Assembly: GCF_001679925.1 (NCBI RefSeq)
Contig: NZ_LYUZ01000024.1
Span: 38,877 to 102,876 of the forward strand
Length of the DNA: 64,000 bases
DNA from: Leisingera sp. JC1
GTDB lineage: Bacteria > Pseudomonadota > Alphaproteobacteria > Rhodobacterales > Rhodobacteraceae
Direction of reading: 5' to 3'
Positions 49,789 through 64,000 of this stretch are shown here, in pieces. Position 1 is the stretch's first letter. Every line of letters begins with the position of its first letter. The translations under genes were made by a program, and so were the position numbers. Below the pieces are notes generated by a model that was not told the DNA's origin, did no database searches, and worked only from the letters and a program-made list of their open reading frames with translations.

Positions 49789-50219
49789 CAGATTACTCCC
49801 AGCAACTGGCGCAGAACCGCTACAGTCAGAATGCCGGCCAGCATGAAAACGGCAGTTGCCGCGATGCCGCGCAGGGACAAGCGGGAGATTCCGCAGACCC
49901 CGTGGCCGGAGGTGCAGCCGTTGGCAATGCGGGTGCCGATGCCCACCAGCAGCCCCGCGCCAATCAGCACCGCAGCATTGCTGGTGACGTGGGTAACTGG
50001 CGCATGTCCCGTGACGAGAGCGATCAGAAGCGGCACCAGAACAACGCCGCCAATGAAGGCGATGCGCTCAGCTGCATTGGACCGGCCGCTGCCATCCAGC
50101 AGCCCGCCCAGAATGCCGCTGGCGCCCATGATGCGTCCGTTGCCCAGCAGGAACACTGCGCCGCCGAGGCCAATCAGCAGCCCGCCGCCAAGTCCCCAGA
50201 TCCAATCCGCTTCCATCAC
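49788..50219 (-). CDS. YeeE/YedE half-transporter, first subunit
   Basis: A 143-residue membrane protein (Met1 or Met2 start). The 'GGAVFLLGNGRIMGASGILGG' and 'GTRIANGCTSGHGVCGISRLS' motifs contain the conserved cysteines of the thiosulfate/sulfur YeeE family. The split into two about 140-residue proteins is the arrangement seen beside Blh/BigR genes, where the pair probably exports or imports reduced sulfur species. It lies 19 bp after the metallo-hydrolase. Confidence 0.9.
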   Translation of the reverse strand: MMEADWIWGLGGGLLIGLGGAVFLLGNGRIMGASGILGGLLDGSGRSNAAERIAFIGGVVLVPLLIALVTGHAPVTHVTSNAAVLIGAGLLVGIGTRIANGCTSGHGVCGISRLSLRGIAATAVFMLAGILTVAVLRQLLGVI

Positions 50220-50238
50220 GCTGCTCCGTCTTGCCTGT

Positions 50239-51102
50239 CTAAATTTTGTTAACCGGGATCTTGAGGAACACGTCGCCCTGTTCGTCCGGTTCGGGCATTT
50301 GACCAGCGCGCATGTTGACCTGAAGCGACGGCAGGATCAGGCGCGGCATGCCCAGCGTCGCGTCCCGGGCATCGCGCATCTCGACAAATTCCTCGATGCT
50401 GCGGCCTGCGCCCACATGCACGTTCAGTGCTTTCTGTTCGCCAACAGTGGTCTCCCAGGCGAAATCGTCACGCCCCGGGGCCTTGTAGTCGTGGCCGACA
50501 AAGACCCGGGTGTCATCGGGCAGCGTCAGGATCTTCTGGATCGAGTTGTAAAGATCCGAAGAGGAACCGCCGGGGAAATCACAGCGGGCAGTGCCAAAGT
50601 CCGGCATGAACAGTGTATCACCGACAAAGGCCGCATCACCGATCACATAGGTGAGGCAGGCCGGCGTATGGCCGGGCGTGTGCAGCACCTCTCCGCGCAT
50701 CTGCCCGATCATGAAACTGTCGCCTTCGCGGAACAACTGGTCGAACTGGCTGCCGTCCCGCTGGAACTCGGTGCCTTCGTTGAACACTTTACCAAAGGTG
50801 TCCTGAACCACTGTAATCTGGTCGCCGATACCGATCTTGCCGCCAACCTGCTCTTGCATATAAGGCGCTGCGGAGAGGTGGTCGGCGTGGACATGGCTTT
50901 CCAGAATCCACTCGACACGCAGGTTTTCGGATTTGATCCAGGCGATGATGGCATCTGCTGAAGCGGTGCAGGTGCGGCCCGCGGCCTGATCAAAATCCAG
51001 CACCGAATCGATGATGGCGCAGGCGGAACCTTCCGGTTCGCGCACCACATATGAAACGGTGTTGGTGGCTTCGTCGAAAAACGCTTTGACGGCGGGGGTC
51101 AT
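50239..51102 (-). CDS. Metallo-beta-lactamase-fold persulfide dioxygenase-like hydrolase (Blh/ETHE1 type)
   Basis: The start at ATG 51102 (287 aa) follows GGGAGAG. The metal motif 'HVHADH' (70-75), 'TPGHTPACLTYVIG', 'FVGDTLF' and 'FVGHDYKAPGRD' match the ETHE1/Blh group of glyoxalase-II-like non-haem iron enzymes, which oxidise glutathione persulfide to sulfite. The neighbouring YeeE pair and DUF442 gene match the BigR-controlled operons of plant-associated bacteria. It is the first gene of the operon. Activity is inferred from family and context. Confidence 0.88.
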   Translation of the reverse strand: MTPAVKAFFDEATNTVSYVVREPEGSACAIIDSVLDFDQAAGRTCTASADAIIAWIKSENLRVEWILESHVHADHLSAAPYMQEQVGGKIGIGDQITVVQDTFGKVFNEGTEFQRDGSQFDQLFREGDSFMIGQMRGEVLHTPGHTPACLTYVIGDAAFVGDTLFMPDFGTARCDFPGGSSSDLYNSIQKILTLPDDTRVFVGHDYKAPGRDDFAWETTVGEQKALNVHVGAGRSIEEFVEMRDARDATLGMPRLILPSLQVNMRAGQMPEPDEQGDVFLKIPVNKI

Positions 51103-51125
51103 CAGTTGCTCTCCCTTGGGTTTGC

Positions 51126-51149
51126 AATTCATATAACGATTTGAGAATG
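51126..51149. promoter_or_regulatory. Candidate BigR/SqrR-type operator of the persulfide operon
   Basis: ATTC (51127-51130) and GAAT (51145-51148) frame an imperfect palindrome 25-46 bp before the ATG. On the minus strand it begins ATTCTCAA, the same 8 bases as in the repressor's own promoter. The 14-base spacing differs from the tighter site there, so the match is partial. Confidence 0.35.
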
Positions 51150-51392
51150 TGTTTCAAGCCTGCCGGCGGGCGCTGTTGAAAGGCTGCTGAATCATTACTT
51201 CCAGCTGATTTAAGTCAAGGCGCCGGGATGCTGCGCTGCGGTAGGCTGGCTGCGCTGCCGGGAGGCCGCAAAAACCACCAGAGGACCGGTAAATCTGCGT
51301 AAATAAGCGGCAGCACGCTCAAATGGCTTGGGTATTCATATGCCTGTTGTGAAATACCGGGATAACCTCATCATGACACAGGGAGGACTGCT

Positions 51393-51608
51393 ATGACACG
51401 TGAAGATCTGCTCAGCACCGTCGAGAGCCTGGAAACCCGGATCCGCAAGGAAAGCGGCGCTGCTAGGCTGGCCATGCGGCCGGAATTCATCCGTCTGCTG
51501 GACTACATGCGCAAGACCGGTGCAGAGGTTCCGGGCCGCTTGCGCCGTCTGGAGGCAACCCTGTGCGAGGAGGCGGTCGAGGACATGTTTGATAACGTGC
51601 CGGTCTAA
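51393..51608 (+). CDS. Small conserved-looking cytoplasmic protein
   Basis: The 71-residue helical protein ('MTREDLLSTVESLETRIRKESG', 'EFIRLLDYMRKTGAEVPGRLRRLEATLCEEAVEDMFDN') has no signal or membrane helix. GGAGG lies at the right distance, and codon use resembles the neighbours, so it is likely to be expressed. I do not recognise the family. It is convergent with the small membrane protein gene 30 bp downstream. Confidence 0.65.
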   Translation: MTREDLLSTVESLETRIRKESGAARLAMRPEFIRLLDYMRKTGAEVPGRLRRLEATLCEEAVEDMFDNVPV

Positions 51609-51637
51609 CCGGAGAAGGGGCAGGGGCGTTCCGGGCG

Positions 51638-51856
51638 TCAGCCCAGGAAGATGCCCACCATCACCAGCATCAGGCCAAGTACTGACAGAAGCAGGGCACC
51701 CAGATTGTAGGGCAGCACTGCTTGCACCACGGCGCGCAGCGCTTCGTCGTCCAGTTTCTGGCGCCGGGCGCGTGCGACCTTGATGATGCACCAAACCAGA
51801 CCCAGCAGGCCGGCAACGGATACGGCGGCTCCGGTCCAAACGATCAGATCGAACAT
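51638..51856 (-). CDS. Small two-helix membrane protein
   Basis: The 72-residue protein has two transmembrane segments ('VWTGAAVSVAGLLGLVWCIIKVA' and 'LGALLLSVLGLMLVMVGIFLG') joined by a basic cytoplasmic loop ('RARRQKLDDEALRAVVQAVLP'). The start ATG 51856 has AGGAGC upstream. The function is unknown; it resembles small uncharacterised inner-membrane proteins of Rhodobacteraceae. Confidence 0.68.
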   Translation of the reverse strand: MFDLIVWTGAAVSVAGLLGLVWCIIKVARARRQKLDDEALRAVVQAVLPYNLGALLLSVLGLMLVMVGIFLG

Positions 51857-52063
51857 AGGTGTGCTCCTGAGGGGTTTTGTGCAGGGATGCGCCTAGCCGA
51901 TGCGTTGTGCGCGTGCAAGCGTTTCGGCCCCGTTTGACGGGTTCTGTTGCCGGTTTTCGCCGCTCTGTGCGCCTCTGCCGCTTTCCCGGCTTGCAGCGCG
52001 CCGGGCGGGGCGCTATCCCCTTGCTCCGACAGCAACTGACAGCCTTTGCCGACGGAGCCGCAG

Positions 52064-52327
52064 ATGGACATCACAGAAGACGAAAAGAGCGAAAACTACC
52101 GCGTGACCGCTGGCGAGCTGCGCCAGTTCATCGAGCGGTTCGAGCGGCTCGATGAAGAAAAGAAAACCATTGCCGAGCAGCAGAAAGAGGTGATGGCCGA
52201 GGCCAAGGGGCGCGGCTATGACACCAAGGTGATGCGCAAGATCATCGCCCTGCGCAAGCGCGACGAGAACGACATCGCTGAGGAAGAAGCGGTGCTGGAA
52301 ATGTACAAGGAAGCGCTTGGCATGTAA
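52064..52327 (+). CDS. gapR: DUF2312/UPF0335 protein, GapR-like nucleoid-associated protein
   Basis: The start at ATG 52064 gives 87 aa; the upstream in-frame ATG at 52046 is less likely. The protein is almost wholly helical ('LRQFIERFERLDEEKKTIAEQQKEVMAEAKGRGYDTKVMRKIIALRKRDENDI' pieces), a coiled-coil dimer. The DUF2312 family includes Caulobacter GapR, which clamps overtwisted DNA ahead of replication and transcription. The short linker 'GYDTKVMRKIIALRK' carries the conserved DNA-binding lysines. It is an essential chromosome-structure protein in Caulobacter. Confidence 0.9.
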   Translation: MDITEDEKSENYRVTAGELRQFIERFERLDEEKKTIAEQQKEVMAEAKGRGYDTKVMRKIIALRKRDENDIAEEEAVLEMYKEALGM

Positions 52328-52350
52328 GCTACGCTGCCGTTCCGAAATGC

Positions 52351-52390
52351 AAAGCCGCGCAGGTCCTGGGCCTGCGCGGCTTTTGTTTTT
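52351..52390 (+). terminator. Rho-independent terminator after gapR
   Basis: A perfect 10-bp stem GCCGCGCAGG / CCTGCGCGGC (7-base loop) is followed by TTTTGTTTTT. It is a textbook terminator 24 bp after the stop codon. Confidence 0.93.
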
Positions 52391-52481
52391 CAGGGTTCGC
52401 CATGAGAAATTTTAAGCTTGAAATAAATGCCGCGGCAGCGCTATGGTCAGCCCAGGCAGTGATCAGCAAAGGAGTCCCGCC

Positions 52482-52880
52482 ATGCCGGCCATCAGCGTGC
52501 ATCCCGAAGGGTGGAAGCCCGCAAAAGGCTATGCCAATGGCATGGCGGCAGAAGGCCGGCAGTTGTTTGTCGGCGGCCAGATCGGCTGGACCGCGGAGCA
52601 GGTGTTTGAAGCTCGGGACTTCATCGGGCAAATGAGCCAGGCGCTGCGCAACATTCTGGAAGTCGTCCAAACGGCAGGCGGCAAAGCTGAAGATATCACC
52701 AGGCTCACCTGGTATGTGACGGACAAGGAAGAGTACCTGGCCCACCAGGCGGAGGTCGGGAAAGCCTACCGTGCGGTGATGGGCTATCACTTCCCGGCCA
52801 TGACCATGGTGGTGGTTTCAGCCTTGGTTGAGGATGAGGCCAAGGTTGAAATCGAGGCCACTGCAGTGCTGCCATCCTAA
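52482..52880 (+). CDS. RidA-family protein, second copy
   Basis: The start at ATG 52482 (132 aa) follows AAAGGAG. The YjgF fold is visible ('EGRQLFVGGQIGWTAEQVFEARDFIGQMSQALRNILEVVQTAGG', 'IEATAVLPS'). The RidA Arg105 position reads 'HFPAMTMVVV', so the imine-deaminase arginine is missing. It sits 290 bp upstream of the pyrimidine locus. RutC of the Rut uracil pathway is also a RidA-family protein, but this gene has its own terminator-separated context, so a link is only a possibility. Confidence 0.87.
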   Translation: MPAISVHPEGWKPAKGYANGMAAEGRQLFVGGQIGWTAEQVFEARDFIGQMSQALRNILEVVQTAGGKAEDITRLTWYVTDKEEYLAHQAEVGKAYRAVMGYHFPAMTMVVVSALVEDEAKVEIEATAVLPS

Positions 52881-53170
52881 GACTTTGCAGGGAGCCGGGA
52901 CAGTGCTTTCAAGGTGCTGAATTGCTGCCATAGGGCCAGACCAAAGATGCCATTTTGGGGTGAAAGCCGAAGTTTCGGCGCGTCTTGAATGGGGCGCAGG
53001 CGCAATCCAGCCGAAAACAGTTCCGGCATAATCTCGCTTTTTCAATCTGTTGCGTGCCGTTCCTCCGGGAGCGGCATTTTTTTTGCCCGCGGCAAAATTT
53101 TACCAGTTGATAAAAAATCAGACTGTGGCACTCTGATATCAAGAACAACAGAAAATCAGGGAGACACCCA
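52881..53170. other. Promoter region upstream of preT
   Basis: No gene was found in the 290 bp after ridA. The last 110 bp are AT-rich and contain the degenerate RutR box; the rest has no recognisable motif. Confidence 0.5.
53099..53114. promoter_or_regulatory. Degenerate RutR box upstream of preT
   Basis: TTTACCAGTTGATAAA matches 11 of the 14 defined bases of TTGACCAnnTGGTCAA and lies 57 bp before the preT ATG. With the perfect copy beside rutR it indicates control of preTA by RutR. Confidence 0.65.
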
Positions 53171-54505
53171 ATGGCGACCAGCCATCAGGCATCCGGTATT
53201 CAGGCAGCGCGGCTTGACGCTGCCGGCATTGCCGAGAATTTCTCGGACCTGCATCCAGCCTATGACGCGCATGAAGCAGCCGTGGCGGCGGACCGCTGCT
53301 ATTTCTGCTATGATGCGCCCTGCATGACAGCCTGTCCGACCAGCATCGACATTCCCCAGTTCATCCGGGAGATCCAGGCAGGCCACCCCGAAAGCGCGGC
53401 CAGGACCATTCTGGAGCAGAACATTCTCGGCGGCATGTGCGCCCGGGTCTGTCCGACAGAAACGCTCTGCGAAGAGGCTTGCGTGCGCGAAACCGCCGAG
53501 GGCAAGCCGGTCGAGATCGGCCGCCTGCAGCGTTATGCCACCGACACGCTGATGGAAAAGGGGGCGCATCCCTTCACCCGTGCGGCCTCCACCGGCAAAA
53601 AAGTTGCCGTGGTTGGCGCCGGTCCCGCGGGCCTGGCCGCCGCGCACCGTCTGGCGATGCTGGGCCACGATGTGGTGGTCTACGATGCCAAGTCCAAGGC
53701 GGGCGGCCTCAATGAATTCGGTATCGCCGCCTATAAATCGACCAATGATTTTGCCGCGCGCGAGGTTGACTGGCTGCTGCAAATCGGCGGCATCACAATG
53801 GATTATGGCAAGAAGCTGGGCGCGGAACTGTCGCTGGACGGGCTGACTTCCGGCTATGACGCGGTGTTCCTGTCCATCGGCCTGGCCGGCGTCAACGCCT
53901 TGCGTGCGCCGGGCGAGGACAAGGACGGCGTGCGCGACGCGGTGGAGTTCATCGCCGAATTGCGCCAGGCCGAAGATCTGACGGCGCTGCCGGTGGGCCG
54001 CAATGTGGTGGTGATCGGCGGTGGCATGACGGCAGTGGACGCCGCGGTGCAGTCCAAGCTGCTGGGTGCCGAAAACGTGACCATCGCCTACCGCCGCAGC
54101 CGTGAGGAAATGGGCGCGAGCCGCTTTGAGCAGGATCTGGCAGCCTCCAAAGGCGTCAAGCTGATGTTCAACGTCATGCCCAAAGCGGTGCTTGGCAACG
54201 GGTCGGCGGCAGAGATCGAACTGGAGTATACTCAGGTCGCAGACGGCAAGGTGTCTGGCACCGGCGAGACCGTGCGTTTGGCCGCGGACCAGGTGTTCAA
54301 GGCGATCGGGCAGACGCTGGCAGGCCAGCCCGATGCGCTGGAGCTAGAGGGCCGCAAAATCAAGGTCAGTGACACGGGCCGCACCTCGATGGCCGGTGTC
54401 TGGGCCGGAGGCGACTGCGCCTCTGGCGGCGAGGACCTCACCGTGACCGCCGTGGCCGAGGGCCGCGATGCTGCAATGGACATTCACTCCAGCCTGATGG
54501 GCTGA
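53171..54505 (+). CDS. preT: NAD-dependent dihydropyrimidine dehydrogenase, subunit PreT
   Basis: A 444-residue flavoprotein of the GltD/PreT type. The N-terminal cysteine-rich Fe-S domain (Cys43, Cys46, Cys51, Cys55 and Cys90-Cys104) is followed by two dinucleotide folds ('VVGAGPAGLAAAHRLAMLG' at about 147 and 'VIGGGMTAVDAAVQSKLLG' at about 276). It passes electrons from NADH to PreA, which reduces uracil and thymine to dihydro forms. The AGGGAGACACCCA site precedes the ATG. Pairing with preA distinguishes it from glutamate synthase subunits. Confidence 0.94.
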   Translation: MATSHQASGIQAARLDAAGIAENFSDLHPAYDAHEAAVAADRCYFCYDAPCMTACPTSIDIPQFIREIQAGHPESAARTILEQNILGGMCARVCPTETLCEEACVRETAEGKPVEIGRLQRYATDTLMEKGAHPFTRAASTGKKVAVVGAGPAGLAAAHRLAMLGHDVVVYDAKSKAGGLNEFGIAAYKSTNDFAAREVDWLLQIGGITMDYGKKLGAELSLDGLTSGYDAVFLSIGLAGVNALRAPGEDKDGVRDAVEFIAELRQAEDLTALPVGRNVVVIGGGMTAVDAAVQSKLLGAENVTIAYRRSREEMGASRFEQDLAASKGVKLMFNVMPKAVLGNGSAAEIELEYTQVADGKVSGTGETVRLAADQVFKAIGQTLAGQPDALELEGRKIKVSDTGRTSMAGVWAGGDCASGGEDLTVTAVAEGRDAAMDIHSSLMG

Positions 54506-54513
54506 GCCAGTTC

Positions 54514-54534
54514 GGGTGCAGTTCTTCTGCATCC
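54514..54534 (+). repeat. Hairpin in the preT-preA intercistronic gap
   Basis: An 8-bp stem (one G-T pair) with a TTCTT loop lies between preT and preA. No T-run follows, so it is more likely an mRNA-stability or translation element than a terminator. Confidence 0.45.
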
Positions 54535-54560
54535 AAGCTAGCCTTAAGAGGAGAGATCAA

Positions 54561-55865
54561 ATGGCTGATCTGACAACAGAATTTCTGGGGATTAAATCCC
54601 CCAACCCGTTCTGGCTGGCTTCCGCGCCGCCGACCGACAAGGAATACAACGTCCGCCGCGCCTTTGAGGCCGGATGGGGCGGCGTGGTCTGGAAGACCCT
54701 TGGTTCCGAAGGCCCGCCGGTGGTCAATGTGAACGGCCCGCGATACGGCGCAATCTGGGGCGCCGACCGCCGCCTTCTGGGTCTTAACAACATCGAGTTG
54801 ATCACCGACCGGCCGCTGCAGACCAACTTGGAGGAAATCACCCGCGTCAAGAAGGACTACCCGGACCGCGCCGTGATCGTGTCGATCATGGTGCCCTGCG
54901 AGGAGCAGGCCTGGAAAGACATCCTGCCGCAGGTTGAGGCAACCGGCGCCGACGGGATCGAGCTGAACTTCGGCTGCCCGCATGGCATGGCCGAGCGCGG
55001 CATGGGCTCCGCCGTGGGGCAGGTGCCGGAATACATCCAGATGGTCACCGAGTGGTGCAAGAAATACTACTCCAAGCCGGTGATCGTGAAGCTGACGCCG
55101 AATATCACAGACATCCGCAACCCGGCCCGCGCGGCCAATGCGGGCAATGCAGATGCGGTCAGCCTGATCAACACCATCAACTCGATCACCTCGGTGGATC
55201 TCGACAGCATGGCGCCGGAGCCGACCATCGGCGGCAAGGGCACCCATGGCGGCTATTGCGGCCCGGCGGTGAAGCCGATTGCGCTGAACATGGTGGCGGA
55301 AATTGCCCGCGACCCGCAGACCCGCGGCCTGCCGATATCGGCCATCGGCGGCGTCACCACTTGGCGCGACGCGGCGGAATTCATGGCAATGGGGGCCGGC
55401 AACGTGCAGGTCTGCACTGCGGCGATGACCTATGGCTTCAACGTGGTGAAGGAAATGATCTCGGGCCTGTCCACTTGGATGGACGAGAAGGGCTACACCT
55501 CCACCCAGGACTTCATCGGCATGGCGGTTCCGAATGTGACCGACTGGCAGTATCTGGACCTGAACTATGTGACCAAGGCCAAGATCAGCCAGGACGATTG
55601 CATCAAATGCGGCCGCTGCTATGCGGCGTGCGAGGACACTTCGCACCAGGCGATTGCGATGAGCGAGGACCGGGTGTTCACGGTGAAGGACGACGAATGC
55701 GTCGCCTGCAACCTCTGTGTGAACGTCTGCCCGGTCGAAAATTGCATCACAATGGTCGAGGTTCCCGCTGGCCAGATCGACGAGCGCACTGGTGAGGTGG
55801 TTTCAGGCGACTATGCGAACTGGACCACGCATCCGAACAATCCGTCGGCAACAGCTGCGGAATAA
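54561..55865 (+). CDS. preA: NAD-dependent dihydropyrimidine dehydrogenase, subunit PreA
   Basis: The start at ATG 54561 (434 aa) has AGAGGAGAG upstream. A dihydroorotate-dehydrogenase-like FMN barrel (about 1-330) includes 'LNFGCPHGM', 'NTINSI' and the active-site loop 'GTHGGYCGPAVKPIALNM' with the catalytic Cys. The C-terminal bacterial-ferredoxin domain has two [4Fe-4S] motifs ('CIKCGRCYAAC' and 'CVACNLCVNVCPVENC'). PreTA together do the work of mammalian DPD, the first step of reductive uracil and thymine breakdown. Confidence 0.96.
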   Translation: MADLTTEFLGIKSPNPFWLASAPPTDKEYNVRRAFEAGWGGVVWKTLGSEGPPVVNVNGPRYGAIWGADRRLLGLNNIELITDRPLQTNLEEITRVKKDYPDRAVIVSIMVPCEEQAWKDILPQVEATGADGIELNFGCPHGMAERGMGSAVGQVPEYIQMVTEWCKKYYSKPVIVKLTPNITDIRNPARAANAGNADAVSLINTINSITSVDLDSMAPEPTIGGKGTHGGYCGPAVKPIALNMVAEIARDPQTRGLPISAIGGVTTWRDAAEFMAMGAGNVQVCTAAMTYGFNVVKEMISGLSTWMDEKGYTSTQDFIGMAVPNVTDWQYLDLNYVTKAKISQDDCIKCGRCYAACEDTSHQAIAMSEDRVFTVKDDECVACNLCVNVCPVENCITMVEVPAGQIDERTGEVVSGDYANWTTHPNNPSATAAE

Positions 55866-55871
55866 CTGAAA

Positions 55872-55889
55872 CGCGCCCAAGCGGGCGCG
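55872..55889. repeat. Hairpin CGCGCCC-AAGC-GGGCGCG
   Basis: A perfect 7-bp stem with a 4-base loop lies 7 bp after preA, just before the canonical terminator. It may act as a transcription pause or mRNA 3' protection. Confidence 0.5.
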
Positions 55890-55910
55890 CTGTCTCCCCG
55901 TTGACTTTGC

Positions 55911-55937
55911 GCCCCGGCTTTTTGGCCGGGGTTTTTT
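55911..55937 (+). terminator. Rho-independent terminator after preTA
   Basis: The stem CCCCGGC / GCCGGGG with loop TTTTTG is followed by TTTTTTG. It closes the preTA operon, so the downstream catabolic genes are read from other promoters. Confidence 0.92.
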
Positions 55938-55999
55938 GTTGGAATTGGTTCCGGCGCAGGCAGGTAGGCTGTCCAGCGGAATTGCTGCGGTCGGTTGCT

Positions 56000-56614
56000 T
56001 CAGCTTTTCGGCGTAAGCATGCGACGGTACAGGGTTTCCAGGTACTGCGGCGCGGCGTCAAAAGGGTCTTCGTCCCCCATCAAGGTCCGGACCTGGGCGT
56101 CAAAATCCGCATAATGCTGGGTAAGCGACCAGATCGAAAACAAGAGATGCTTAGGGTGCGCGCGGTTGATCCGGCCTGCATCCATCCACCCCTGCAGCAG
56201 TTGCGCCTTTTCCTCGACTAGGACATTCAAATCCGCCGCGATCACGTCATGCAGCCTAGGCGCGCCCTGAACGATTTCATTGGCATACAGCCGGCTTTCC
56301 CGCGGGAAATCGCGGCTCATCTGCAGCTTTCGCTGCACATAGGCGAGGATTTCTTCGAGAGGTTCCCCCTCCGGGTCCAGCGCACGCAGCGGGTCCAGCC
56401 AGGTGTCCAGCAGCCCTGCCATCAGCTCGTTGAAAATAGCTTCCTTGGAGGGGAAGTAATAGAGCAGGTTCGGCTTACTGAGCCCAGCTGCCTTGGCGAT
56501 CTGGTCCACGGTGGAGCCGCGGAAGCCGTGGCTGGAGAAAACATCCAGCGCGGCCTCCAGAATGGCGGCGCGATTCTTTCTCTGAATGCGGGTGGGCGCG
56601 CGGTCTGCGGGCAT
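56000..56614 (-). CDS. rutR: TetR-family pyrimidine regulator RutR
   Basis: The start at ATG 56614 (204 aa). The N-terminal TetR helix-turn-helix is 'ILEAALDVFSSHGFRGSTVDQIAKAAGLSKPNLLYYFPSKEAIFNELM', nearly the RutR pattern. The ligand domain contains the RutR-type 'SRLYANEIVQGAP' and 'HLLFSIWSLTQHYADF' segments. RutR dimers release DNA when uracil or thymine binds. The gene is divergent from the beta-ureidopropionase gene, and a perfect RutR operator lies between them. Confidence 0.93.
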   Translation of the reverse strand: MPADRAPTRIQRKNRAAILEAALDVFSSHGFRGSTVDQIAKAAGLSKPNLLYYFPSKEAIFNELMAGLLDTWLDPLRALDPEGEPLEEILAYVQRKLQMSRDFPRESRLYANEIVQGAPRLHDVIAADLNVLVEEKAQLLQGWMDAGRINRAHPKHLLFSIWSLTQHYADFDAQVRTLMGDEDPFDAAPQYLETLYRRMLTPKS

Positions 56615-56748
56615 GTCCGTCCTTGTCTGTTTTTGCCGCAGCCGCCAGGGGACGCGCGGAATTTCACCTATTTCCGGCAAAAGCACCGATTTTTTCAAGT
56701 GCCACGCGGCAATTTCTTGACTGGTGGTGAACCCGTGATAGCGTGAGT

Positions 56749-56764
56749 TTGACCAGTTGGTCAA
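56749..56764. promoter_or_regulatory. RutR box, perfect match
   Basis: TTGACCAGTTGGTCAA matches the E. coli RutR consensus TTGACCAnnTGGTCAA at all 14 defined bases; the palindrome extends one base on each side. It is 135 bp from the rutR start and 118 bp from the hydrolase start, and can control both. Confidence 0.93.
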
Positions 56765-56881
56765 ATCAAGGCTCGGCACGCAACAGACTGAGCGTTGATG
56801 AGACCAGCACGCATAAGCCACCTAACACGGCGCCAAGCCGGAAAGCCTGCAAAGACGGGCGCACAGGGAAGGAAGCTCTTG

Positions 56882-58132
56882 ATGACGTCGCTTGGACAGA
56901 ATCTGAAAATTGATGGTGACAGGCTGTGGGACAGCCTGATGGAGATGGCCAAGATTGGGCCTGGCGTGGCGGGCGGCAACAACCGTCAGACGCTGACCGA
57001 TGAAGACGGCGAAGGCCGTGCGCTGTTTCAGAAATGGTTCGAAGACGCCGGCTGCACCATGGGGCTGGACCAGATGGGCAACATGTTTGCGGTGCGCGCG
57101 GGCACCGACCCCGACGCGCTGCCGGTTTATGTTGGTTCGCATCTGGATACCCAGCCGACCGGCGGTAAGTACGATGGCGTGCTGGGGGTGTTGGCGGGGC
57201 TGGAATTGATCCGCTCGCTCAACGATATGAACATCAAAACTAAGCATCCGATTGTAGCCACCAACTTCACCAATGAGGAAGGCACACGCTACGCGCCTGC
57301 GATGCTGTCTTCGGGTGTTTTTGCAGGCATTCACACCCAGGACTGGGCATATGAGCGTGAAGACGCGGAGGGGAAGAAGTTCGGCGATGAGCTGAAGCGT
57401 ATCGGCTGGCGCGGCGAGGAGGAGACCGGCGCCCGCAAGATGCATGCCTTCTTTGAACTGCACATCGAGCAGGGTCCGATCCTGGAGGCCGAGGGCAAGG
57501 ACATTGGCGTGGTGACCCACGGCCAGGGCCTCAGCTGGACGCAGGTGACGATCACCGGCAAGGATGCCCATACCGGCTCCACCCCGATGCCGATGCGCCG
57601 CAATGCGGGCCTTGCGATGGCGCGTATCCTGGAGCAGGTGGACGAGATCGCCTGGAGCCACGCGCCCCATGCGGTTGGTGCCGCGGGCCATATCGACGTC
57701 TACCCTAACTCACGCAACGTGATTCCGGGCAAGGTGGTCTTTACCGTCGACTTCCGCAGCCCGGAGCTGGATGTGATCACCGACATGGAAAACCGCCTGC
57801 GCGAGCAGGGTTCCAAGATCGCTGAGAAGATGGGGGTGGAGATCGCATTCGAGAAGGTCGGCGGCTTCGACCCTGTGGCCTTTGACGAGGGCTGTGTCAG
57901 CGCAGTGCGCAGCGCGGCAGACCGGCTGGGCTATTCGCATCTCGATATCATCTCCGGCGCCGGTCACGACGCCTGCTGGATCAATAGGGTGGCGCCCACC
58001 GCGATGGTGATGTGCCCTTGCGTTGACGGGCTCAGCCACAACGAGGCCGAGGAAATCAGCAAGGAATGGGCCGAGGCGGGCGCCAATGTTCTGTTCCATG
58101 CGGTGGTCGAGACAGCGGAGATCGTTGAATAG
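56882..58132 (+). CDS. N-carbamoyl-beta-alanine amidohydrolase (beta-ureidopropionase), M20 family
   Basis: The start at ATG 56882 (416 aa) has GGAAGG upstream. The di-zinc M20 hydrolase motifs are His87 in 'VGSHLDTQPTGG', Asp98 in 'KYDGVLGVL', the Glu132-Glu133 pair in 'TNEEGTRYAP', His194 in 'HIEQGPILE' and 'SGAGHDACW'. The family also contains allantoate and L-carbamoylase enzymes. The neighbouring dihydropyrimidinase and PreTA favour beta-ureidopropionase, which releases beta-alanine, CO2 and ammonia. It is the first gene of the rightward operon and is under RutR. Confidence 0.92.
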   Translation: MTSLGQNLKIDGDRLWDSLMEMAKIGPGVAGGNNRQTLTDEDGEGRALFQKWFEDAGCTMGLDQMGNMFAVRAGTDPDALPVYVGSHLDTQPTGGKYDGVLGVLAGLELIRSLNDMNIKTKHPIVATNFTNEEGTRYAPAMLSSGVFAGIHTQDWAYEREDAEGKKFGDELKRIGWRGEEETGARKMHAFFELHIEQGPILEAEGKDIGVVTHGQGLSWTQVTITGKDAHTGSTPMPMRRNAGLAMARILEQVDEIAWSHAPHAVGAAGHIDVYPNSRNVIPGKVVFTVDFRSPELDVITDMENRLREQGSKIAEKMGVEIAFEKVGGFDPVAFDEGCVSAVRSAADRLGYSHLDIISGAGHDACWINRVAPTAMVMCPCVDGLSHNEAEEISKEWAEAGANVLFHAVVETAEIVE

Positions 58133-58190
58133 GGGCGCTGCCCCCGCGGCCCCTAGGGCCGCTCCACCGGAGTATTTCCGGCAAGATGAA
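58133..58190. repeat. Rhodobacteraceae-type intergenic GC element
   Basis: The GGGGCGCTGCCCCCGCGGCC stretch with downstream ACCGGAGTATTT and CAAGATGAA resembles a short repeat family often seen between genes in Rhodobacteraceae. It lies in the gap between the two hydrolase genes. Only one clear copy is in the window, so the repeat status relies on recollection. Confidence 0.4.
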
Positions 58191-58264
58191 TGAGAAGCTG
58201 CGCCAGACAGCGGAAGAGACAAGTGGAGGCGTTAAAATACGCCCCGATTCAGGGAGTTGTAACC

Positions 58265-59719
58265 ATGAGTAAAGTCATCCGGAACGGCACCATCGTGACC
58301 GCCGATCTGACCTACAAGTCCGATGTGCTGATCGAAAACGGGGTGATTACCCAGATCGGCCCGAACCTGAAAGGCGATGAAGAACTGGACGCCACCGGCT
58401 GTTATGTGATGCCGGGCGGGATTGATCCGCACACCCACTTGGAGATGCCCTTCATGGGCACCTACAGCTCGGACGATTTCGAGAGCGGCACCCGCGCCGG
58501 GCTGGCGGGCGGCACCACCATGGTAGTGGATTTTGCACTGCCCAATCCGGGTGAGAGCCTGCTGGACGCGCTGAAGCGCTGGGACAACAAATCGACCCGC
58601 GCCAACTGCGATTACTCTTTCCACATGGCAGTCACCTGGTGGGGCGAGCAGGTCTTTGACGACATCAAGACCGTGATCCAGGAGCGCGGCATTAACACCT
58701 TCAAGCACTTCATGGCCTACAAGGGGGCGCTGATGGTGAATGATGATGAGCTCTACGCCTCTTTCCAGCGGCTGGCGGAGCTGGGCGGCATCGCTATGGT
58801 GCATGCTGAAAACGGCGACGTGGTGGCAGAACTGTCCGCTAAGCTCTTGGCACAAGGTAATAATGGCCCTGAAGCACACGCCTATTCCCGCCCGCCGCAG
58901 GTGGAGGGTGAGGCGACCAATCGCGCCATCATGATCGCCGATATGGCAGGCGTGCCGCTCTATGTGGTACATACCTCCTGCGAGGACAGCCACGAGGCCA
59001 TCCGCCGCGCCCGGATGCAGGGCAAGCGGGTCTGGGGGGAGCCGCTGATCCAGCATCTGACACTGGATGAGAGCGAATACTTCAACAAGGACTGGGACCA
59101 CGCCGCCCGCCGGGTGATGTCGCCGCCGTTCCGCAACAAGCAACATCAGGACAGCCTTTGGGCCGGTTTGCAGTCGGGCTCGCTGTCTGTGGTGGCAACG
59201 GACCACTGCGCCTTTACCACCGAGCAAAAGCGTTATGGGGTTGGCGATTTCACCAAGATTCCGAACGGCACCGGCGGCCTGGAGGACCGGATGCCGATGC
59301 TGTGGACCCACGGTGTGGAAACAGGCCGGATCACGCCGAATGAATTTGTGGCGGTCACTTCGACAAATATCGCCAAGATATTGAATTGTTACCCGAAAAA
59401 GGGTGCGGTTCTGGTTGGCGCGGATGCCGATCTGGTGGTCTGGGATCCGGAAAAACGCAAGACGATTTCGGCCGGAACTCAGCAATCCTCGATCGACTAC
59501 AATGTGTTCGAGGGCCATGAGGTGAAAGGCCTGCCGCGCTTTACCCTGACCCGCGGCCATGTGGCGGTGCATGACGGTGAGATCCGCTGCCAGGAGGGCC
59601 ACGGCAAGTTCGTCTCGCGGGAGGCCAACACCACGGTGAACAAGGCGCTGTCGACCTGGAAAGAGCTGACCGCGCCGCGTCCGGTGGAGCGCACCGGCAT
59701 CCCGGCGACAGGCGTGTAA
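58265..59719 (+). CDS. hydA: Dihydropyrimidinase
   Basis: The start at ATG 58265 (484 aa) has GGGAG upstream. The amidohydrolase-fold enzyme has metal ligands His56 and His58 ('DPHTHLEMPF'), the carbamylated lysine Lys153 in 'FMAYKGAL', and later 'VVHTSCEDSHEAIRRAR' and 'VVATDHCAF' with the metal-binding Asp. It opens dihydrouracil to N-carbamoyl-beta-alanine, the second step after PreTA. D-hydantoinase activity is common in the family. It is 132 bp after the beta-ureidopropionase gene. Confidence 0.95.
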   Translation: MSKVIRNGTIVTADLTYKSDVLIENGVITQIGPNLKGDEELDATGCYVMPGGIDPHTHLEMPFMGTYSSDDFESGTRAGLAGGTTMVVDFALPNPGESLLDALKRWDNKSTRANCDYSFHMAVTWWGEQVFDDIKTVIQERGINTFKHFMAYKGALMVNDDELYASFQRLAELGGIAMVHAENGDVVAELSAKLLAQGNNGPEAHAYSRPPQVEGEATNRAIMIADMAGVPLYVVHTSCEDSHEAIRRARMQGKRVWGEPLIQHLTLDESEYFNKDWDHAARRVMSPPFRNKQHQDSLWAGLQSGSLSVVATDHCAFTTEQKRYGVGDFTKIPNGTGGLEDRMPMLWTHGVETGRITPNEFVAVTSTNIAKILNCYPKKGAVLVGADADLVVWDPEKRKTISAGTQQSSIDYNVFEGHEVKGLPRFTLTRGHVAVHDGEIRCQEGHGKFVSREANTTVNKALSTWKELTAPRPVERTGIPATGV

Positions 59720-59779
59720 ATCAGGAACGGGCTGCCAGTAGTGGCGGCCCGTTTTCCTGTGTGAAATCAAGGCGAAGAT

Positions 59780-60619
59780 ATGAATATGGAAACGACCACC
59801 CAGGCTATCCATCCCGAGGCCGCCGCTTCCGCTACAGTTCCTGCGAATTGCGTGATCGAGGCCCGGAACCTGGACCTGACATTCCAGACCAACGACGGAC
59901 CGGTGCACGCGCTGAAGGATGTGAGCCTGGAGATCAAGAAGGGCGACTTTGTCTCCTTCATCGGCCCCTCCGGCTGCGGCAAGACCACCTTCCTGCGCTG
60001 TATCGCGGCGCTGGAAACACCCACCGGAGGCAGCCTGTCCGTGAATGGCATGACGCCGGATGAGGCACGGCGTAACCGGGCCTATGGCTATGTGTTCCAA
60101 GCCGCGGGTCTGTACCCCTGGCGCACCATTGCCAAGAACATCAAACTGCCGCTGGAGATCATGGGATATTCCAAGGCCGAGCAGGAGAAGCGCGTCAACC
60201 AGGTCCTGGAACTTGTTGAATTATCAGGATTTGGCGGCAAGTTCCCCTGGCAGCTGTCCGGCGGGATGCAGCAGCGCGCCTCCATCGCGCGGGCGTTGGC
60301 GTTTGATGCCGACATCCTGCTGATGGACGAGCCCTTCGGGGCGCTGGATGAGATCGTGCGCGACCATCTGAACGAGCAGCTGCTGAAGCTGTGGGCACGG
60401 ACCAACAAGACCATCGGCTTTGTCACCCACTCGATCCCTGAGGCGGTGTATCTGTCCACCAAGATCGTGGTGATGTCGCCGCGGCCGGGACGGATTCATG
60501 ACGTGATTGACAGCACGCTGCCCAAGGAGCGGCCGCTGGATATCCGCGACAGCCCGGAGTTCATCGAGATCGCCCACCGGGTGCGCGAGGGCCTGCGGGC
60601 GGGGCATGGCGATGACTGA
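59780..60619 (+). CDS. ABC transporter ATPase (NMT1/THI5-type importer)
   Basis: The 279-residue protein has Walker A 'IGPSGCGKTT' (about 61-70), signature 'LSGGMQQRASIARAL', Walker B 'ILLMDEPFGALDE' and the H-loop 'GFVTHSIPEA', all as in the nitrate/sulfonate/taurine and thiamine-precursor importer ATPases. It is 60 bp after dihydropyrimidinase and upstream of two permeases, so it probably energises uptake of a pyrimidine or its breakdown products. The N-terminal about 25 residues are variable. Confidence 0.94.
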   Translation: MNMETTTQAIHPEAAASATVPANCVIEARNLDLTFQTNDGPVHALKDVSLEIKKGDFVSFIGPSGCGKTTFLRCIAALETPTGGSLSVNGMTPDEARRNRAYGYVFQAAGLYPWRTIAKNIKLPLEIMGYSKAEQEKRVNQVLELVELSGFGGKFPWQLSGGMQQRASIARALAFDADILLMDEPFGALDEIVRDHLNEQLLKLWARTNKTIGFVTHSIPEAVYLSTKIVVMSPRPGRIHDVIDSTLPKERPLDIRDSPEFIEIAHRVREGLRAGHGDD

Positions 60620-60659
60620 GTTGGCCAGCCGGACCCGCCGGAATTGGGGGGTGACACGC

Positions 60660-60688
60660 GTGCACCCCCTGTGCACCCCCTGTGCACC
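60660..60688. repeat. 11-bp tandem repeat GTGCACCCCCT before the first permease
   Basis: Two perfect copies and a third 7-base partial copy (GTGCACC) lie in the 99-bp gap between the ATPase and first permease genes, in a stretch that lacks codon bias. It is unusual for an intra-operon gap and could be a slippage site. Confidence 0.7.
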
Positions 60689-60718
60689 GGACGGCAGACA
60701 AACGGGGAGGGCGGAGTC

Positions 60719-61636
60719 ATGAAAAGCCTTGTTGCCGTCCTCACCGTGCTAGCCGCAATCATCGCCTTCTGGTACGCGGCCTGCGTGCCGATGAACATCA
60801 AGGGCGTGCTGGATGCTGCCGAACGGGCAGGGGTTGAAGTCACCCCGGCAACCGCCAAGGAACGCCGGGACAGGGGTGAGATCGGGCTGGTGGTGAACAA
60901 CACATTTGCCATCGCCGACACCTGGGTGCAGGAGCGCCCGCGGCTGCCCGCGCCGCATCAGGTCGCGGTGGAGCTGTGGGAGACCACGGTGGAGAAGAAA
61001 ATCACCTCCAAACGCAGCCTGATCTATCACGGGCAGGTGACTCTGTCGGCAACGCTCCTGGGCTTTGCCATCGGCACCGGGCTTGGCATTCTGCTGGCGG
61101 TTGGGATTGTGCATTCCCGCGTCATGGATATGTCGGTGATGCCCTGGGCGATTGTCAGTCAGACCATCCCGATCATCGCACTGGCGCCGATGATCATCGT
61201 GGTGCTTTACTCCATCGGGGTGCAGGGGATCATCCCCAAGGCAGTGATCTCAGCCTACCTCAGCTTCTTCCCGGTTGTTGTCGGCATGGTGAAGGGCCTT
61301 CGGGCACCGGATGCGATGCAGTTGGATCTGCTGAAAACCTACAACGCCAACACGAACCAGGGGTTCTGGAAGCTGCGGCTGCCGTCCTCGATGCCTTATC
61401 TGTTTGCGTCGCTGAAGATCGGCATTGCCGCCTCGCTGGTGGGGGCCATCGTGGGTGAGCTGCCGACCGGTGCGGTTGCGGGCCTTGGCGCAAGGCTCTT
61501 GGCGGGCAGCTATTACGGGCAGACCGTGCAGATCTGGTCGGCGCTGTTTGCCGCGGCGATCCTGGCGGCGGCGCTGGTGGCGCTGCTGGGCCTGATCGAG
61601 AAGGTTGTCTTGAACCGGATGGGGGTACGGGCATGA
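60719..61636 (+). CDS. ABC transporter permease, first subunit
   Basis: The start at ATG 60719 ('MKSLVAVLTVLAAIIAFWYAACVP') gives 305 aa. The first helix is followed by a long non-membrane segment of about 90 residues ('ERAGVEVTPATAKERRDRGEIGLVVNN'), unusual in binding-protein-dependent permeases, then five helices with the EAA loop 'LLKTYNANTNQGFWKLRLPSSMPYL'. It partners the second permease, which overlaps by 4 bp (ATGA). It belongs to the NitT/TauT/ThiX-like permease group. Confidence 0.92.
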   Translation: MKSLVAVLTVLAAIIAFWYAACVPMNIKGVLDAAERAGVEVTPATAKERRDRGEIGLVVNNTFAIADTWVQERPRLPAPHQVAVELWETTVEKKITSKRSLIYHGQVTLSATLLGFAIGTGLGILLAVGIVHSRVMDMSVMPWAIVSQTIPIIALAPMIIVVLYSIGVQGIIPKAVISAYLSFFPVVVGMVKGLRAPDAMQLDLLKTYNANTNQGFWKLRLPSSMPYLFASLKIGIAASLVGAIVGELPTGAVAGLGARLLAGSYYGQTVQIWSALFAAAILAAALVALLGLIEKVVLNRMGVRA

Positions 61637-62478
61637 TACTGGTGATCCTTGCAATCCTTGTCTGGTGTTCGGGCTGGTGGCTGAACAGCCGGCTGGCAAA
61701 CAGCCCGGCATCGAAAACCCGCGCGGTGCAGCTGCTGGTGCCGGCCATCTTCGGCATCACCGTTCTGGTGGTCTGGGAACTGCTGGTCAGGGGGCTGGCG
61801 GTGTCGCTGGTGATCCTGCCGGCGCCGACGGTCATTGCGGCGCGCTTTGCCTCCAGTCTGCCGATCCTGTGGGAGGATTTTGCCCAGACGATCCTGAAGG
61901 GCGCGCTTGGCGGTTACCTGATCGGTTGCGGCGCGGCTTTCCTGACTGCGATCCTGGTGGACCGCAGCGATTTCCTGCGCCGGGGCCTCTTGCCGGTCGG
62001 GAATTTCGTTGCTGCGCTGCCGATTGTCGGCACCGCGCCGATCCTAGTGATGTGGTTCGGGTTTGACTGGCATTCAAAGGCTGCGGTGGTTGTGGTCATG
62101 GTGTTCTTTCCTATGCTGGTGAACACCGTGGCGGGGTTGCGTGAAACCGACCAGATGCAGCGCGACCTGATGCAGACCTATGCGGCTGGATACTGGCAGA
62201 GCTTCTTCAAGCTGCGGCTGCCGGCGGCGCTGCCGTTTGTGTTTAACGGGCTCAAGATCTCAACCACGCTGGCGCTTATTGGCGCGATTGTGGCGGAGTT
62301 CTTTGGCTCGCCCACCGTCGGCATGGGCTTCCGCATTTCCACCAGCGTCGGACAGCTGGCGCTGGACATGGTCTGGGCGGAAATCGTGGTGGCGGCGCTG
62401 GCCGGGTCGGCCTTCTACGGGCTGGTTGCGCTGATCGAGAAGAGTTTTACCTTCTGGCACCCTTCACAGCGGGGCTGA
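61633..62478 (+). CDS. ABC transporter permease, second subunit
   Basis: The 281-residue protein has about six helices and the EAA loop 'LMQTYAAGYWQSFFKLRLPAALPFV'. It is homologous to the preceding permease without the long hydrophilic insert. The start overlaps the first permease as ATGA, which suggests a 1:1 heterodimer. It is followed by a terminator, after which the binding protein is expressed separately. Confidence 0.93.
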   Translation: MILVILAILVWCSGWWLNSRLANSPASKTRAVQLLVPAIFGITVLVVWELLVRGLAVSLVILPAPTVIAARFASSLPILWEDFAQTILKGALGGYLIGCGAAFLTAILVDRSDFLRRGLLPVGNFVAALPIVGTAPILVMWFGFDWHSKAAVVVVMVFFPMLVNTVAGLRETDQMQRDLMQTYAAGYWQSFFKLRLPAALPFVFNGLKISTTLALIGAIVAEFFGSPTVGMGFRISTSVGQLALDMVWAEIVVAALAGSAFYGLVALIEKSFTFWHPSQRG

Positions 62479-62485
62479 AAGTTGA

Positions 62486-62515
62486 ACCGTCCCGCTGATT
62501 GCGGGGCGGTTTTTT
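62486..62515 (+). terminator. Rho-independent terminator after the permease genes
   Basis: A 10-bp stem (ACCGTCCCGC / GCGGGGCGGT, one G-T pair, loop TGATT) is followed by a T-run (TTTTT). It separates the hydrolase-transporter operon from the binding-protein gene. Confidence 0.9.
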
Positions 62516-62568
62516 GCGGAAATCTTGCGCGGGGTGCCGTCAAAGGCTGGCCTCATAAAGAAAAAACT

Positions 62569-62584
62569 TTGAACGAATGGTCAA
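62569..62584. promoter_or_regulatory. RutR box upstream of the binding-protein gene
   Basis: TTGAACGAATGGTCAA matches 12 of 14 consensus bases; the right half TGGTCAA is perfect. It lies 43 bp before the ATG and just past the preceding terminator, so the binding protein should have its own RutR-controlled promoter. Confidence 0.75.
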
Positions 62585-62627
62585 ACCCGGGCAAGCTTCA
62601 CATCATAATCAACAGGGAGAACGAGAC

Positions 62628-63614
62628 ATGAAACATCTGATGACAGCGGCAGCGCTGATGATGGGCGCCGCAGGGGCGGCGCAGGCGGCGGATGACGTCA
62701 CGCTGCAGCTGAAGTGGGTGACCCAGGCGCAGTTCGCGGGCTATTACGTGGCGCTGGACAAGGGGTTCTATGAAGAAGAGGACCTGAATGTCACCATCCT
62801 TCCGGGCGGCCCCGATATTGCGCCGACCCAGGTGATTGCCGGCGGCGGTGCTGATGTGACGGTGGAATGGATGCCTGCGGCGCTGGCCGCACGTGAAAAG
62901 GGCCTGCCGCTGGTCAATATCGCGCAGCCGTTCAAATCCTCCGGCATGATGCTGACCTGCTGGAAGGACACCGGCATTGCCGAACCAGCCGATCTGGCGA
63001 ACCGCACCCTGGGGGTCTGGTTCTTCGGTAATGAGTTCCCGTTCATGAGCTGGATGAGCCAGCTGGGCATCTCCACCGAGGGTAAGAGCGAGAACGGTGT
63101 GGAAGTTCTGAAGCAGGGTTTCAACGTCGATCCGCTGCTGCAGCGCCAGGCGGACTGCATCTCGACCATGACCTATAATGAATACTGGCAGGTCATTGAC
63201 GCGGGTGTGTCGCCGGATGAGCTGATCACCTTCAAGTACGAGGATCAGGGCGTGGCGACGCTGGAAGACGGTTTGTACGTGCTGGAGGAGAACCTGAACG
63301 ACGAGGCCTTTGCCGGCAAGATGGAGCGTTTTGTCCGGGCGTCGATGAAGGGCTGGAAATACGCCGAGGAGAACCCGGACGAGGCGGCAGAGATCGTGCT
63401 GGACAATGACGCCTCCGGTGCCCAGACCGAAACCCACCAGAAGCGGATGATGGGCGAGATTGCCAAGCTGACCGCGGGCAGCAACGGCGCGCTGGACGAA
63501 GCGGACTACCAGCGCACCGTGTCGACCCTGATGGGCGGCGGCTCTGATCCGGTGATCACCAAGGAGCCGGAGGGCGCCTGGACCCATGCCATTACCGATG
63601 CGGCTCTGAAGTAA
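62628..63614 (+). CDS. ABC transporter substrate-binding protein (NMT1/THI5-like)
   Basis: The start at ATG 62628 (328 aa) has a Sec signal peptide ('MKHLMTAAALMMGAAGAAQA', cleaved before ADDVTL). The NMT1/THI5 opening 'LQLKWVTQAQFAGYYVALDKGFYEEEDLNVTI' and 'GGGADVTVEWMPAAL' are strong. THI5/ThiY proteins bind pyrimidine precursors of thiamine; here the RutR box and pyrimidine genes suggest uracil, thymine or a dihydro- or ureido-intermediate as ligand. The protein is periplasmic. Confidence 0.93.
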   Translation: MKHLMTAAALMMGAAGAAQAADDVTLQLKWVTQAQFAGYYVALDKGFYEEEDLNVTILPGGPDIAPTQVIAGGGADVTVEWMPAALAAREKGLPLVNIAQPFKSSGMMLTCWKDTGIAEPADLANRTLGVWFFGNEFPFMSWMSQLGISTEGKSENGVEVLKQGFNVDPLLQRQADCISTMTYNEYWQVIDAGVSPDELITFKYEDQGVATLEDGLYVLEENLNDEAFAGKMERFVRASMKGWKYAEENPDEAAEIVLDNDASGAQTETHQKRMMGEIAKLTAGSNGALDEADYQRTVSTLMGGGSDPVITKEPEGAWTHAITDAALK

Positions 63615-63641
63615 ACCGCAGCAGCAGACAGATACTGCCAG

Positions 63642-63670
63642 CCCCGCCGGACCTGTTCCGGCGGGGTTTT
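63642..63670 (+). terminator. Rho-independent terminator after the binding-protein gene
   Basis: A perfect 10-bp stem CCCCGCCGGA / TCCGGCGGGG (loop CCTGT) is followed by TTTT. It closes the pyrimidine locus. Confidence 0.93.
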
Positions 63671-64000
63671 CCATTCATTGCTTCTGGATTGGTTAAATTT
63701 GCAACAAAATTGCAGCTCGATGGAAAAACATCCTGAGGTTGTTTTTGTTTGTGTTATCCTAATCTCATGGGAGAGATGTGCGGACGTATCTCTGAACGGG
63801 TGAGGCCTGCTGGCAAAGCGCCGCAGCATTTGTGTCTTTGTTCCCGGTCTGAAGCCGCCGAGTGCCGGTCCAAGTACGCGGTCAAAGGGCGGTTCGCCCT
63901 GCGTGATGTGGCCTGCCGGAGCAGCGCCTTGCCTCTGATGGCATTGTGCCAGAAGGCGCATGGGCGAAAACTGGCAACAGGCCGGGCGCAGGTCCTGGTG
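63671..64000. other. Unassigned right-hand end
   Basis: No recognised gene. An ATG frame from 63767 stays open to the window edge (78 codons, many Cys and Arg), but its product matches nothing I know and its ribosome binding site is poor. A small RNA is possible: a stable GGGCG-GTT-CGCCC hairpin sits near 63890, but I recognise no RNA family. The first 100 bp are AT-rich and promoter-like, with TTATCCTAAT near 63755-63764. Confidence 0.35.

Follow-up and report, generated by a model that had tools for sequence, protein, structure and literature searches.

The described systems closest to the one considered here, a RutR-like regulator and its operator-like boxes in a pyrimidine locus of Leisingera sp. 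JC1, are RutR of Escherichia coli and PydR of Pseudomonas putida. In the structure of E. coli RutR, uracil is contacted by W77, Y97, W167, Q171 and Q179, and lysines 52 and 62 contact DNA (structural description in PMC10891134). PydR, to judge by the title of Hidese et al. (2012) as cited in PMC7332683, is RutR-like and represses the gene of the reductive pathway that encodes dihydropyrimidine dehydrogenase. In addition, RutR regulons have been reconstructed in silico in 68 genomes from 13 taxa, comprising 273 sites and 743 genes; according to the text of Leyn et al. (2016; PMC5343134), they carry the label 'Pyrimidine catabolism' and their motif varies by taxon. In the open-licence literature we found no paper on RutR in Rhodobacteraceae and none linking uracil phosphoribosyltransferase and cytidine deaminase to RutR; for RutR regulon, pyrimidine and Rhodobacterales, only Leyn et al. 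(2016) was found.

We analysed a stretch of 64,000 nucleotides, referred to below as the window (positions 38,877–102,876 of contig NZ_LYUZ01000024.1, here C24), from a genome of 5.19 Mb in 168 contigs that is 99.6% complete; among the matches listed, its closest named relatives are Leisingera. The locus contains preT and preA, then rutR on the opposite strand, followed by hyuC, hyuA, the genes of an ABC ATPase and two permeases, and that of an NMT1/THI5-family binding protein, these identities being consistent with the profile matches. With E. coli RutR the system shares the TetR fold, the uracil-contact residues, the DNA-contact lysines and an operator-like site like that between divergent rutR and rutA; it differs in that E. 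coli RutR controls the oxidative Rut route (rutABCDEFG) with the RutG permease, whereas here we find the reductive PreTA/HyuA/HyuC route and an ABC importer. The likeness to PydR, drawn from its title alone, is that of RutR-like control, here a proposed one, over dihydropyrimidine dehydrogenase, although P. putida belongs to another class of Proteobacteria; the likeness to the regulons of Leyn et al., drawn from the text of that paper, is that of in silico RutR regulons with taxon-specific motifs.

On the basis of conserved boxes, we consider it highly probable that rutR itself, preTA and the hydrolase-importer operon are under the control of a RutR-like repressor, which probably also acts on the binding-protein gene, the cdd-deoA-deoB operon, upp and a DUF1330 gene. 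The core arrangement, RutR-like control of the reductive pathway, is largely of a known kind, because PydR is on record and RutR regulons have been reconstructed in 68 genomes. The boxes before the salvage genes (cdd, upp) and the DUF1330 gene may be the new part when set against the text of Leyn et al.

The features of the locus are given below in window coordinates. The boxes are scored against the RutR operator consensus, which we take to be TTGACCANNTGGTCAA.

53099–53114, + strand: operator-like box TTTACCAGTTGATAAA 5' of preT; 3 mismatches, 11/14 to TTGACCANNTGGTCAA and 13/14 to TTTACCANNTGGTAAA
53171–54505, + strand: preT, flavoprotein/Fe-S subunit of dihydropyrimidine dehydrogenase (Pfam Fer4_20 and Pyr_redox_2)
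54561–55865, + strand: preA, catalytic subunit of dihydropyrimidine dehydrogenase (NF006183 PreA, 726 bits against a cut-off of 335)
55911–55932, + strand: terminator-like hairpin 3' of preA (pattern match only)
56000–56614, − strand: rutR, RutR-like TetR-family regulator of 204 amino acids (PF08362, 155 bits; conserved uracil-contact residues)
56749–56764, unstranded: perfect box TTGACCAGTTGGTCAA between divergent rutR and hyuC; 0 mismatches, 14/14 to TTGACCANNTGGTCAA
56882–58132, + strand: hyuC/pydC, probable beta-ureidopropionase (N-carbamoyl-beta-alanine amidohydrolase; reaches the TIGR01879 cut-off)
58265–59719, + strand: hyuA/pydB, dihydropyrimidinase (TIGR02033, 603 bits against a cut-off of 393)
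59780–60619, + strand: ABC importer ATPase (profile matches, PF00005)
60719–61636, + strand: ABC importer permease 1 (PF00528)
61633–62478, + strand: ABC importer permease 2 (PF00528)
62492–62509, + strand: terminator-like hairpin 3' of permease 2 (pattern match only)
62569–62584, + strand: box TTGAACGAATGGTCAA 5' of the binding-protein gene; 2 mismatches, 12/14
62628–63614, + strand: periplasmic binding protein, NMT1/THI5-like (PF09084)

From the gene spacing and the hairpins after preA and permease 2, we infer four transcription units. The name of preT rests on its domains and position, its scores lying under all NCBIfam cut-offs shown. Among solved structures, HyuA is closest to a dihydropyrimidinase (3dc8, 916 bits). 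For HyuC the best solved relative is 8apz (672 bits), named N-carbamoyl-L-amino-acid hydrolase, and the second best is 8c46 (668 bits), named N-carbamoyl-beta-alanine amidohydrolase; HyuC also reaches the cut-off of NF006769, a model named allantoate amidohydrolase. Just 5' of the preT promoter lies a RidA-family gene (52443–52880), which is present in 11/81 of the loci compared below and has no box of at least 11/14 of its own in those 11.

Operator-like boxes and their conservation

In the window, 8 sites have at most three mismatches to the consensus, against a mean of 1.62 in shuffled sequence, and none of 100 shuffles reaches 8; for the five sites beyond the three boxes above we make no claim as operators. 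A site inside hyuC (57066–57081) was rejected as coding, and a match 5' of preA that lies inside preT (54285–54300) was rejected as an operator. The boxes stand 56 bp from the start codon of preT, 43 bp from that of the binding-protein gene, 117 bp from hyuC and 134 bp from rutR. The first-pass annotation had placed all three boxes exactly and had the distance to the binding-protein gene right, its value of 57 bp for preT being one too many. It should be noted that the two boxes it called partial are no weaker than the E. coli counterpart, since in E. coli the site that scores best between rutR and rutA itself has only 11/14 to the consensus.

We compared the window with its 80 nearest relatives, the best 80 of 535 confirmed stretches; upstream counts omit loci in which a contig end lies too near the gene or the protein match covers less than 60%. 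A box of at least 12/14 was observed before rutR or hyuC in 80/81 loci, the sole exception being a short contig that shows no rutR (L075). Before preT, a box of at least 11/14 was observed in 67/73 loci, against 1.6% in resampled upstream sequence, and a site of at least 10/14 in all 73, at 44–76 bp 5' of the gene; the remaining six sites read TTTACCG-nn-TGATAAA. Since all 73 preT sites fit the sister form TTTACCA-nn-TGGTAAA with at least 11/14, the box of the window, partial by the consensus, is a nearly perfect palindrome of the sister form. If PydR-type control is assumed to be defined by a RutR-like box 5' of the genes of dihydropyrimidine dehydrogenase, that trait is present in 73/73 of these loci at 10/14 or better.

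Permuted palindromes did not reproduce these results: whether at rutR, hyuC, preT or the binding-protein gene, or at cdd and upp, 0/200 equalled the true consensus. Upstream of preA, matches occur in 9% of loci and 1/200 permuted palindromes does as well; these matches were rejected as operators. Within the hydrolase-importer operon, no box of at least 11/14 was found before hyuA or either permease in these loci, and the ATPase gene has one in 1/79. The 8 boxes found before the binding-protein gene have a common aligned position and common flanks, and the box is decayed in one Leisingera locus (L007) and absent in two others (L008 and L009); it is a lineage-specific element with weak support.

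Across the class, RutR-like hits at E ≤ 1e-25 were obtained in 42/289 alphaproteobacterial genomes searched. Apart from the source genome, 41 genomes gave such hits, and 39 of these supplied the 40 stretches of the class-wide set, which leaves out G249, G265 and the second hits of G179, G211 and G339. At least two of preT, preA, hyuC and hyuA are present in 28/40 of these loci, RutA in 1/40 and an NMT1/THI5-like binding-protein gene in 19/40. A preT box lies 48–234 bp upstream in 20/28 loci with preT, against 1.4% expected by chance. Thus, by gene content, loci that carry such a RutR-like regulator commonly pair it with reductive genes, and the pairing is not peculiar to the source genome. Three loci whose proteins are among those nearest E. 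coli RutR (L174–L176) contain neither reductive genes nor RutA within the stretch.

The regulator protein and the form of its operator

The regulator carries a YcdC-like C-terminal domain (PF08362, 155.1 bits, cut-off 25) and TetR_N (60.7 bits, cut-off 24), and it is identical to E. coli RutR at 84 of 203 aligned residues. The window protein and 78/78 aligned relatives keep all five uracil-contact residues and both DNA-contact lysines, and among 45 class-wide proteins there is a single departure, one W167F. In the tree (60 rows, midpoint root), the window regulator and E. coli RutR lie on one side of a 100/99 branch and a second RutR-like clade on the other; both clades occur with reductive-pathway genes. 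Five loci (L165, L167, L168, L169 and L184) have one regulator of each clade, adjacent to each other. The source genome has a single RutR-like gene at E ≤ 1e-25.

The source assembly (99.6% complete, 168 contigs) gave no match to RutA, and for this reason we class the protein as RutR-like and assign it to the reductive route. RutA scores above its cut-off in 1/149 genomes of the family; matches at E ≤ 0.001 occur in 103/149, nearly all of them far under the cut-off.

The operator between rutR and hyuC takes more than one form. Among 79 loci, it has TTG/CAA on both sides in 48, TTT/AAA in 20 and a mixed form in 11. The pair PS just after the recognition helix is kept in 0/20 TTT rows; it is present as LPS in 38/48 TTG rows and in 6/11 mixed rows, three of the 48 TTG rows having no readable helix motif. 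From the alignments, the replacement of TTGACC by TTTACC in this operator, seen in one clade, may have been accompanied by a change just after the recognition helix. All 20 TTT rows fall in one tree group of 27 rows, so the link between operator and helix may reflect a single event.

Boxes elsewhere in the genome

The genome-wide results come from pattern searches. The relaxed palindrome TTKAYCANNTGRTMAA occurs exactly three times in the source genome, at hyuC/rutR, preT and cdd, and its reversed control 0 times. Sites with at most two mismatches number 53, against 25 for the reversed control, an excess, yet the two-mismatch sites among them were not used as targets. Among the sites with at most one mismatch, C79:66738 and C87:37008 were rejected as targets, since they lie inside open reading frames. 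In a pattern search of 12 hand-picked genomes, 3/12 had no exact match. The sites retained outside the locus are as follows.

C24:10346–10361 (6347–6362 of stretch L087): box 17 bp 5' of cdd, in the tight cdd-deoA-deoB operon; third TTKAYCANNTGRTMAA site
C24:13283–13298 (9284–9299 of stretch L087): one-mismatch box 5' of upp
C81:213425–213440 (1501–1516 of stretch L005): one-mismatch box 5' of a DUF1330 gene behind alaS

The cdd and upp boxes lie on the contig of the window, about 25–28 kb to its left. Their occurrence in relatives was scored in 30 of the 80 relatives' genomes, hand-picked for spread over genera before the results were known. A cdd box of at least 11/14 is present in 13/30 relatives, in 12 of the 13 at 15–29 bp before the start, and a upp box of at least 11/14 in 6/30, at 63–80 bp. 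A DUF1330 box, again of at least 11/14, is present in 10 of the 30 (the 30 being stretches L219–L248), at 63–71 bp; this count was prompted by sites in the source genome and in G011, one of the 30, so that the independent figure is 9/29. The chance rates for the three boxes are 0.2–0.7%. The regulon thus appears, from these upstream sites, to be larger than the locus, to include cdd-deoA-deoB, upp and the DUF1330 gene, and to have outgrown what the first-pass annotation foresaw. The distribution of the boxes suggests a fixed core with lineage-specific additions.

Several side observations concern genes near such boxes. In five relatives (L052, L062, L063, L067 and L083), a gene of an AptA-family omega-aminotransferase, an enzyme type expected to act on beta-alanine, lies between rutR and hyuC under a box of 13–14/14; in the source genome, there is no box before the AptA gene at C92:2499. 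In Ruegeria atlantica HKCCD9103 (the genome of L012), double RutR-type boxes (L215, L216 and L218) precede a second RutR-like gene, a gene of CofG (deazaflavin) and a gene of a Bmp/PnrA-like ABC binding protein. In the assembly of relative L011, a stop interrupts the reading frame of upp (L123).

Proposed regulation and competing explanations

We propose the following course of events, inferring repression and uracil induction from the boxes and the conserved residues. When uracil is scarce, a dimer of the RutR-like protein would sit on the rutR/hyuC palindrome and on the preT box and keep rutR, preTA and the operon of hydrolases and importer repressed. Uracil, or thymine, would enter the C-terminal pocket, whereupon the repressor would leave the DNA and the cell would make the importer and the reductive pathway, which would convert uracil to dihydrouracil, then to N-carbamoyl-beta-alanine and finally to beta-alanine, ammonia and CO2. 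In this lineage, the repressor would probably act at the promoter of the binding-protein gene too, and elsewhere in the genome probably at cdd-deoA-deoB, upp and the DUF1330 gene. More broadly, in Leisingera, Ruegeria and near relatives, RutR would be a uracil switch over import, reductive breakdown, salvage (cdd-deoA-deoB and upp) and DUF1330; its regulon would have grown stepwise on a fixed core of rutR/hyuC and preT, and its rutR/hyuC operator would have shifted from TTGACC to TTTACC together with a change just after the recognition helix in one clade; to this reading as a whole we assign a probability of about 0.5.

A number of results weigh against the proposed regulation. The regulator scores under the cut-offs of both RutR equivalog models, with 212.7 bits for TIGR03613 (cut-off 368) and 192.4 bits for NF011584 (cut-off 230). 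The near-relative counts come from nearest relatives only, which are kin to each other and not independent, and even there the binding-protein box of at least 11/14 is present in only 8/77 loci, against 1.3% in resampled sequence. Class-wide, no such box was found in the 19 loci with that gene, and the hyuC box was found in 8/26. Each of the cdd, upp and DUF1330 boxes is lacking in the majority of the 30 relatives, two of the six genomic sites that have no more than one mismatch fall within other open reading frames, and a consensus scan of 52800–64000 gave no sigma-70-type promoter.

With regard to the first-pass annotation, these data divide its claims. It had given every transcription unit of the locus a box of its own or a shared one and had named conservation in relatives beforehand as a check; this holds for rutR/hyuC (80/81) and preT (67/73) but mostly not for the binding-protein gene, at 8/77 near relatives and 0/19 class-wide. 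Its view that RutR appears to control PreTA and the hydrolases, with an NMT1/THI5-like importer in place of RutG, is supported by the gene pairing, the conserved boxes and the lack of a RutA match, but the regulator fails the cut-offs that would make it RutR in the strict sense.

The regulator might instead control only rutR/hyuC and preTA, the boxes at the binding-protein gene, cdd, upp and DUF1330 being chance matches, relics or sites of another TetR-family protein whose palindrome is similar. The scarcity of these boxes, found in 8/77 loci for the binding protein (decayed or absent in three Leisingera) and in a minority of the 30 relatives for the others, speaks for such a restricted regulon, and some relatives do have a second RutR-like regulator beside the first. 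We nevertheless regard it as unlikely, though a serious contender, because the cdd, upp and DUF1330 boxes stand at steady positions where present (15–29 bp in 12/13, 63–80 bp and 63–71 bp), their chance rates are just 0.2–0.7%, only one RutR-like gene at E ≤ 1e-25 is present in the source genome, and the products of cdd, deoA and upp act on pyrimidines.

The substrate of the importer also allows another interpretation. The binding protein matches PF09084 with 131.4 bits (cut-off 20.5) and, together with the PF00005 ATPase and the two PF00528 permeases, forms an NMT1/THI5-type ABC importer. The nearest solved folds to its model (mean pLDDT 89) are 3ix1 (formyl-aminopyrimidine-binding) and 4nmy (thiamin-bound), then Thi5, so that the importer could carry the thiamine precursor hydroxymethylpyrimidine, not uracil or thymine, and have some other reason to stand in the operon. 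A search for riboswitch control of the importer gave none: no Rfam family, riboswitches included, reaches its gathering score in 50000–64000. Moreover, the binding-protein gene stays with the locus, in 77/81 near-relative loci, the other four reaching a contig end before that gene, and in 19/40 class-wide. We consider transport of the thiamine precursor improbable, and a pyrimidine base is our best guess for the substrate.

That the operon serves the use of hydantoin or N-carbamoyl amino acids is very improbable: hydantoinases and carbamoylases do belong to the HyuA/HyuC families, and the best solved relative of HyuC and the allantoate amidohydrolase model carry such other names, but preTA adjoins the hydrolase genes, HyuA reaches the dihydropyrimidinase equivalog cut-off, HyuC has in second place, close behind its best solved relative, an N-carbamoyl-beta-alanine amidohydrolase, and in five relatives the gene of the AptA-type omega-aminotransferase stands under the box that lies between rutR and hyuC.

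Taken together, our results suggest that a single uracil switch governs import and breakdown as well as salvage. If the proposed regulation is true, the control logic of pyrimidine use would be fixed for a marine group, and the sensor family of the E. coli oxidative route would run the reductive route with its own importer, both here and, probably, in many Alphaproteobacteria. The analysis provides testable targets in an uncharacterised DUF1330 protein and a probable THI5-type uracil/thymine importer, and the two operator forms may represent a case in which an operator and its regulator changed together.

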